NCBI GenBank assembly: GCA_930990665.1
Contig: CAKNQN010000004.1
Coordinates: 1-64,000, forward strand
Length of the DNA: 64,000 nucleotides
Direction of reading: 5' to 3'
Source of the DNA: an uncultured Clostridia bacterium
Lineage (GTDB): Bacteria; Bacillota; Clostridia; Christensenellales; Borkfalkiaceae
In this document: piece after piece, positions 37,725-63,196 of the stretch
Position numbering within the stretch: position 1 is the first letter of the stretch
How the letters are laid out: every line of letters starts with the position of its first letter
Translations under genes and position numbers: made by a program
Notes under the pieces: model-generated
Databases searched by the model: none
Seen by the model: the letters and a program-made list of their open reading frames with translations, nothing else
Told to the model about the DNA's origin: nothing

Positions 37725-38066
37725 TATCGGAGAAAGGCGGCTTGGTCTGTATTATGCAATAGACGGTGAAAAAGTGATTGGCGCGGACACATGGAAAAGC
37801 GAAGTCGGTGCAAAGAGAAGCAAGGCGCGTCGGAGGTGAATAAACAGGCATAGGACGAAGGGGCGAAAAGACGGAGAAAAGGCAGGCAGGGGCGAAAAGG
37901 AAAAAGCGAACGCGGCAGGCAAGAAAAAAGGCAAACAAATTGGCTTGAAGTAAAAACCGAGGCGGCAGGAGGCGGCAGGGGCACGGGGGAGGTTCGGGCA
38001 TATCGTGCACGTGCGGCAAGGCTGTGGCATAGGATGGTATGAGGGTACTTTACGGAGGATAAAATT

Positions 38067-61092: not shown

Positions 61093-62469
61093 ATGCTGAA
61101 ATTGAAGGCGGGTCATACGGTAGCGGCATGCTTTGCCGGATATATAACGCAGGCGATCATAAACAATTTTGCGCCGCTTCTCTTTGTCACTTTTCATTCT
61201 ACATATGGATTGTCGCTCGCTCTGATCGGCGCGATGATCACGATCAATTTCGGGATCCAGTTGCTCGTCGATCTTTTTGCGTCCAAATTTGCCGATAAAA
61301 TCGGTTATCGTCCTCTCATCGTTGCGGCGCATATTCTGGCGGGGGCCGGGCTTGTTTTCCTTGCTGTTCTTCCGGAAGTTCTCCCGTCGCCGGCGGCGGG
61401 GCTTTTCATTGCTGCGGCTGTATACGGGATCGGGGGAGGACTTATCGAAGTGCTCGTGAGCCCCATCGTGGAGGCGTGTCCTTATCGGAATAAAAAATCC
61501 ATGATGAGCCTTCTGCATTCCTTTTACTGTTGGGGACAGTTGGGGGTTGTGGCTCTTTCCACCCTCGTGCTGGCGGCGGTCGGGATCGGCAACTGGCGTA
61601 TTCTTGCCTGTGTCTGGGCTGTTTTCCCTCTGCTGAATGCCGTGCTCTTCATGTTTGTGCCGATCTACAAGCTCGTGGAGGGGGGTGACAGCATGAAGTT
61701 GTCCGAACTTTTCCGCTCGAAAACTTTTTGGCTGTTCGCCTTTCTGATGATCTGCTCGGGAAGCAGTGAAACGGCCGTCAGTCAATGGGCTTCCGCGTTT
61801 GCCGAAACGGGGCTGGGCGTTTCCAAAATGTGGGGCGATCTGCTCGGTCCATGTCTTTTTGCGGCATTTATGGGTATTTCCCGCGTGATCTTTTCCAGAT
61901 ATGGGGAAAGAATTGCTTTACAAAAAGCCCTTATGGCCGGGGCCGTCGGCTGCGTCATCGGATATTGTATGTGTGCCTTTGTACCCTTGGCCGGGGTCGG
62001 CCTTGCGGGCTGTGCCGTCGTAGGCTTTTCGGCGGGCGTGATGTGGCCGGGCGTTTTTTCGTTTGCATCCGGCAAACTGCCCAAAGGCGGTACGGCGATG
62101 TTTGCTCTCCTCGCTCTCGCGGGGGACGTAGGATGTTCCGCCGGGCCTTCGGCTGTCGGGGCTGTAGGCGATGCTTTCGGCGGAAGTCTGCGCGCAGGCA
62201 TTGCTTTCGGTTTGCTATTCCCCGCTCTGATGTTCATCGTTCTCCTGCTGTACGGAATTTCTCGCAGGAAAGAAAATCGTCGTGCTCTTGCCGCGTACAT
62301 GCACCCGGACGGTTCAGCCGTGCAGTCAGACGGGTCCCTTTCCGCCGATTCGGGAGAATTACGTGAGACGGATGCGCATGCCCTCTCTGAAGATCCAAAT
62401 GAACGATCTGTTGCATCTCATGCAGGAAAGGAGGAGAAAGACCAAGGGCATAGCGATAGGCTGCCGTGA
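61093..62469 (+). CDS. MFS transporter
   Basis: 12-TM pattern; FASKFADKIGYRPLIVAAH; MWPGVFSFASGKLPKGGTAMFALLALAGDVGC. Confidence 0.88.
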   Translation: MLKLKAGHTVAACFAGYITQAIINNFAPLLFVTFHSTYGLSLALIGAMITINFGIQLLVDLFASKFADKIGYRPLIVAAHILAGAGLVFLAVLPEVLPSPAAGLFIAAAVYGIGGGLIEVLVSPIVEACPYRNKKSMMSLLHSFYCWGQLGVVALSTLVLAAVGIGNWRILACVWAVFPLLNAVLFMFVPIYKLVEGGDSMKLSELFRSKTFWLFAFLMICSGSSETAVSQWASAFAETGLGVSKMWGDLLGPCLFAAFMGISRVIFSRYGERIALQKALMAGAVGCVIGYCMCAFVPLAGVGLAGCAVVGFSAGVMWPGVFSFASGKLPKGGTAMFALLALAGDVGCSAGPSAVGAVGDAFGGSLRAGIAFGLLFPALMFIVLLLYGISRRKENRRALAAYMHPDGSAVQSDGSLSADSGELRETDAHALSEDPNERSVASHAGKEEKDQGHSDRLP

Positions 62470-62567
62470 CGGAATTGCCGTTACTTTGTGATGGCGTATT
62501 TTTCCTTTTCCGCATATAATAATAAAGGGAGTGCTTCTCCCGCTATTTTTACGAGGGGGAAAGGATC

Positions 62568-62867
62568 ATGTTTTTCTTGTACCTGATCTTGTTCGGCGGC
62601 TGCGGTTCCCGCTGTGGCAGTTGTTCCGAGAGGGGAAGTAATGTCTGGAACGGCTGTAACAATTATGACAGCTGCAACGGCTGCAACGGCTGTAATCGCT
62701 GTAACAGTTGCAACGGCTGCGTTCAGATCACTTCGAACGCGTCATGCGGCGGTTATACTTCGTGCTGCCGCAGCAAAGCCTGCACCGGTTTCGGCAGTAA
62801 CAGCGGAGTGTGCTCGGACCGTGCGTATTACATGCGTCAATACGCGCTCTGCGGCTGCGATCATTGA
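62568..62867 (+). CDS. Cys/Asn/Gly-rich mini-protein, unknown function
   Basis: 99 aa with 17 Cys; core NGCNNYDSCNGCNGCNRCNSCNGC; SD GGGGGAAAGG before ATG; own -10 (TATAAT 62515-62520) and terminator. Confidence 0.75.
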   Translation: MFFLYLILFGGCGSRCGSCSERGSNVWNGCNNYDSCNGCNGCNRCNSCNGCVQITSNASCGGYTSCCRSKACTGFGSNSGVCSDRAYYMRQYALCGCDH

Positions 62868-62895
62868 AATTTGCAGGTCTTATCCTGTCAGGGGA

Positions 62896-62918
62896 GGGCC
62901 GCCGAAAGGCGGCCCTTT
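62896..62918 (+). terminator. terminator of Cys-rich gene
   Basis: GGGCCGCC-GAAA-GGCGGCCC then TTT. Confidence 0.75.
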
Positions 62919-63196
62919 CCATTTGTTCTGTAAAATTGATTTTCATTAAATCGAGGGCTGGAATATCCGCCTGGAGAACAAAATTGAATCATAAAGGCGC
63001 ATGGAATATTTTCTTGGAACTTTTGGAACTTTTGTGAGATTCTTGCTTTATCCGTTTGCTTTTGTTATGATTTTGTGATAAAATAAAGATAAAAGTATGA
63101 GTTCAGTTTATTTTTTTGTTTTACTTCGAAACGGAGAAGTTTACGGAAGAACTGTTCGCTTTTGGGCGGATAAATAAAGTACTTTGGAGGTTTCAG

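Follow-up and report, generated by a model that had tools for sequence, protein, structure and literature searches.

A small cysteine-rich gene in the window analysed here (the whole stretch of 64,000 nucleotides) is a real, coding and conserved gene. It probably encodes, with a likelihood that we put at roughly 0.7, a lineage-specific structural protein of the endospore envelope, in either the coat or the exosporium. The link to the spore comes from the conserved promoter of the gene's relatives alone, which was invisible to the first-pass annotation of this DNA. A disulfide cross-linked envelope role would account for the composition of the protein, its promoter, its distribution and the tolerance of its middle region to change.

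The gene and the features that surround it are as follows.

61093-62469 (+): upstream MFS transporter gene (Pfam MFS_1), close by in 22 of the 30 longer loci
62493-62498 (+): -35 region GGCGTA, weakly resembling the GCA(C/A) element of the family, with GCG here
62513-62520 (+): SigE/SigK-type -10 element CATATAAT; all 39 relatives have C(A/G)TAnn(A/T)T
62527-62541 (+): 5' leader stem-loop GGGAG-TGCTT-CTCCC, supported by joint stem scores against shuffles
62553-62559 (+): SD-like GAGGGGG; AAGGGG or GAGGGG in most relatives
62568-62867 (+): cysteine-rich gene, 99 amino acids plus stop, 17 Cys
62568-62597 (+): conserved hydrophobic head MFFLYLILFG; G10 invariant
62649-62720 (+): Cys/Gly/Asn array, variable in sequence and length among relatives, its DNA partly a 9-bp tandem repeat
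62781-62858 (+): conserved tail CTGFGSNSGVCSDRAYYMRQYALCGC, partly common to a sister family
62891-62920 (+): strong, GC-rich intrinsic terminator-like hairpin, 3' of the ORF

Gene architecture and conservation in the genus

The ORF at 62568-62864 (+) encodes 99 amino acids with exactly 17 cysteines and is closed by a stop codon at 62865-62867. The first-pass annotation had described this ORF, its cysteine count and its cysteine array correctly, and the 9-bp tandem repeat that it reported in the core DNA is present in 5.6 copies at 62671-62720. The -10, SD and terminator that it assigned to the gene were also all found, although the -10 does not look sigma-70-like and a scan for sigma-70 promoters found none. 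Its view that the gene is very likely real is borne out by ten tail residues kept in 39 relatives while third codon positions vary. It had also called the gene isolated, which holds for the surroundings but not for the gene itself, as this is near-universal in its genus. At the other end of the window, positions 1-120 carry a GC-rich unit (ggcgcaaaaagacaggcgcaaaaaggaatcggcacaggagggcc) in imperfect tandem repeats.

Relatives are present in 39 of the 40 genomes of the gut-dwelling genus Candidatus Borkfalkia, each as a single copy. A protein search returned 10 relatives from the same genus and a profile search gave one copy each in 36 of 38 genus genomes, a second match in G005 being another piece of the same ORF; the copies in G010, G019 and G031 were found by inspecting the flank of the MFS gene, which brings the total to 39. 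The sole genus genome without the gene, G015, is 75% complete and has no close relative of the MFS gene. The first profile matched nothing in any other genus of the bacterial family. A contig titled Candidatus Coproplasma avicola (DVHK01000087.1, L091) has a copy that hardly differs from the one in Borkfalkia stercoripullorum, indicating either misnaming or a mixed bin. In the window the gene is flanked by the MFS transporter gene and by one for a xanthine/uracil permease. The gene that follows it differs among the loci and the MFS gene alone is often kept, probably as a neighbour without a functional link.

The 39 members share an architecture in which a head of the form M-C/F/S-LL..LLFG is followed by a middle rich in Cys, Gly, Ser and Asn and by the tail C-x-D-x-x-Y-Y-x-R-Q-Y-A-L-C. 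Ten of the 14 tail positions are invariant, and the tail codons vary silently at third positions (for example TAT/TAC and CTC/CTG/CTT/TTG). Mean pairwise identity is 0.68 in the head and 0.34 in the middle, which can be only a few residues long or reach about 100. No frameshifted relatives, which would have spoken against a coding gene, were seen, and the anticipated variation in repeat number was found between related species, for example between L046 and L058. The proteins contain 15 to 31 cysteines, amounting to 16-26% of their residues with a mean of 20%, and so combine high cysteine content with a repetitive, low-complexity sequence, as do the cysteine-rich coat and exosporium proteins.

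No family had been recognised from the window alone, and this stands: none of the 39 members is matched in Pfam, NCBIfam or PHROG, and neither a PDB profile search nor a search of phage records matched the family. AlphaFold predicts just two short helices, in a low-confidence model (mean pLDDT 41).

A sister family in related genera

Two genera of the same bacterial family, g34 and g32, carry a divergent version of the protein, traced from one weak match in g34, in which GCGC/NNNN repeats are followed by C-x-D-x-Y-Y-x-x-Q-Y-x-L. It shares with the genus family the Cys/Gly/Asn repeats, the YY..QY.L tail, the promoter type and the 5' stem-loop, but differs in having the head NNLF rather than MCLLxxLLFG, a tail shorter by one residue, 14% Cys and no C-[ST]-G-F-G block. 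The two profiles align at the tail only (hhalign probability 88%, pairwise E = 2.9e-6), suggesting that the tails are probably homologous; the rest of the protein may have been rebuilt between the two families. Two weak matches at the level of the order were rejected, as inspection showed no such ORF in one (G348/L070) and no ORF with the motif in the other (G592/L119).

Promoter and 5' leader

The upstream regions of the relatives are hard to align apart from one element, C(A/G)TAnn(A/T)T, which lies 50-63 nt 5' of the start in all 39 genes and would be met by chance in 0.9% of cases per gene. With a spacer of 16-18, CA is found at the -35 position in 30 of the 39 genus genes and AC in 17, and no gene has TT there. 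The sister family has AC at this position in 11 of its 14 members, compared with 0-2 when other offsets are used. Promoters recognised by SigE and SigK in C. difficile have a common -10 and are distinguished by their -35, SigE promoters having ATA there and SigK promoters AC (PMC3789822). The promoter type of the cysteine-rich gene accordingly looks like that of SigK, the late mother-cell sigma factor of sporulation, rather than SigA, and mother-cell control by SigE/SigK is indicated at the level of promoter sequence. The window copy's own -35, GGCGTA, is weak and counts against the SigK reading.

A stem-loop begins 4-8 nt past the -10, with arms that are diverse in sequence yet complementary. 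MAFFT did not keep the stem-loop intact when aligning the leaders, so the stems were scored against dinucleotide shuffles instead, giving a joint z of 12.9 for the 39 genus leaders and 8.1 for the 14 sister leaders. The promoter and stem-loop counts come from related members and are hence not independent.

The same promoter pattern elsewhere, and the sporulation genes of the lineage

The pattern GCAC-N16-18-CATANNATG occurs at 25 sites in five Borkfalkia genomes, compared with 3 for the reversed pattern. Behind these sites are four YlmC/YmxH homologues, two collagen-like genes and one ferritin-like gene; two of the four YlmC/YmxH homologues were run against TIGR02888 and both pass its cut-off. 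Two of the 25 sites are CRISPR repeats, and others precede MFS, hexapeptide-transferase or unassigned genes; several of the downstream genes have no known spore role. In C. difficile, the collagen-like bclA1-3 are under SigK control (PMC3789822). The collagen-like proteins found here, L146 (G000:C15:17871) and L139 (G016:C6:13743), have cysteine-rich N-termini, for example MIDEEFLNCCCCRTALLLRGS, and these cysteines could link them to a cysteine-rich layer. Upstream of two YlmC/YmxH-like genes (L140 and L150) lies a different stem-loop, GGACGC...GCGTCC, starting right after the -10; late mother-cell transcripts in Borkfalkia may often carry a 5' stem-loop. The window itself holds a further match, GCAC-N17-CATANNATG at 38007-38036, some 30 nt ahead of an ORF for a ZIP-like transporter (L141), for which SigK control and chance are both possible.

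Sporulation genes in the Borkfalkiaceae have been reported in a published MAG survey (PMC11536998), and gene content points to an endospore-forming host lineage. Spo0A is found in 33 of the 40 genus genomes and in 14 of the 14 good ones. It has no match in G000 (74% complete), which itself encodes two strong SigK/SigE-type sigma factors. SpoIVA is matched in 145 of 151 genomes of the bacterial family. In a Borkfalkia subset (G000:C13:33280-34266 and about ten other genomes) the SpoIVA match begins only from about model position 146 while the frames are long, so that the N-terminal part seems to have diverged or been replaced.

A probable structural role in the spore envelope and its alternatives

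We infer expression during sporulation, location in the spore, disulfide cross-linking and separate roles for head and tail. The gene would be transcribed by SigK RNA polymerase in the mother cell at a late stage of sporulation. Docking or assembly would fall to the head and to the invariant YYxRQYAL tail, for each of which a short helix is weakly predicted, and cross-linking to the flexible Cys/Gly/Ser/Asn middle. The exact sequence of this middle would be of little importance, leaving its repeats to expand and contract freely. A composition of 20% Cys with Gly, Ser and Asn, the variable sequence and the lack of an enzyme domain all favour an envelope role. A more speculative and rather doubtful extension is a lineage-born envelope system in which the tail docks a cross-linkable, hypervariable cysteine-rich segment onto the spore, letting each species tile its shell differently with a single gene, perhaps in response to host or phage pressure.

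The first-pass annotation had taken the C-x2-C spacing to suggest metal or Fe-S binding. A metallothionein-like protein or Fe-S scaffold whose ligands are the C-x2-C pairs, whether produced in growing cells or in the spore, would suit the high cysteine content and spacing of the window copy. However, the relatives do not keep this spacing in a middle that changes in both sequence and length, neither metallothionein nor any Fe-S or other metal-protein family is matched, and conservation is strongest in the head and the Tyr/Arg/Gln tail rather than in any cysteine pattern. The proposal is left with no positive support and we consider it unlikely. The alternative offered at the same time, a disulfide-rich surface peptide, comes close to the envelope protein favoured here if the surface is that of the spore, but not as a peptide acting elsewhere. 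Small size, a short hydrophobic head and a hypervariable core between conserved ends are what recommend a secreted bacteriocin or RiPP precursor. Yet the neighbours (aldolase, GAPDH, MATE, GNAT, MFS and xanthine/uracil permease genes) are housekeeping genes and general transporters only, with no modification or immunity gene among them, and the one downstream is not conserved. The gene's presence as a single copy in almost all species does not resemble the distribution of bacteriocins and the promoter is of sporulation type, making a secreted peptide very unlikely.

A sporulation promoter alone does not prove a structural role, and the same promoter evidence would serve a non-structural mother-cell protein, such as a regulator, a redox buffer or an adaptor with a partner-binding tail, as would tail conservation far above that of the cysteine-rich middle. 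Against this, composition and repeat behaviour are typical of a structural cross-linked protein and no domain is matched, so that there seems only a small chance of such a role. Were the gene driven by SigA, its -10 would be a TAnnAT box and the link to sporulation a coincidence. The window copy does have a perfect TATAAT inside CATATAAT, but the empty sigma-70 scan, the absence of TT at -35 from all 39 genes, the invariant C of C(A/G)TA and the sporulation genes found with the pattern make this highly improbable.

Comparison with known cysteine-rich spore proteins

The passage of anaerobic gut bacteria from host to host is governed by the spore surface, whose proteins are so different from one lineage to another that they escape homology searches. 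The candidate described here, from a little-studied and mostly uncultured family, was flagged by promoter conservation and not by likeness to known coat proteins. The gene offers a marker for work on the spore surface in the Borkfalkiaceae, and the combination of CA/AC-N16-18-CATAnnAT with a 5' stem-loop provides a search route to further envelope genes.

Various cysteine-rich spore proteins form disulfide-linked layers by self-assembly, and those of different lineages often have no sequence relationship (PMC7333573, PMC6101409, PMC7677010). CdeC and CdeM of the Clostridioides difficile exosporium are likewise cysteine-rich, repeat-bearing and lineage-restricted, with no conserved domain (PMC6101409, PMC7677010); at 405 and 161 amino acids and about 9% Cys they are longer than the Borkfalkia proteins with their 20%, a comparison made by description only. 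CsxA of the Clostridium sporogenes/botulinum exosporium is also a cysteine-rich spore-layer protein, self-assembling and restricted to some clostridia (PMC7333573). Its two-dimensional lattice is proven, whereas the Borkfalkia protein is known from sequence alone and is again compared by description. In Bacillus, CotY, CotZ and ExsY are cysteine-rich layer proteins cross-linked by disulfides (PMC6101409, PMC7333573), from which the Borkfalkia family differs in that none of its 39 members matches a Pfam or NCBIfam model, those for CotY/CotZ/ExsY included. While the Borkfalkia protein falls outside the known families by Pfam, NCBIfam and PDB search, the best explanation, by analogy, is that it would work like CdeC, CdeM, CsxA and CotY/ExsY.
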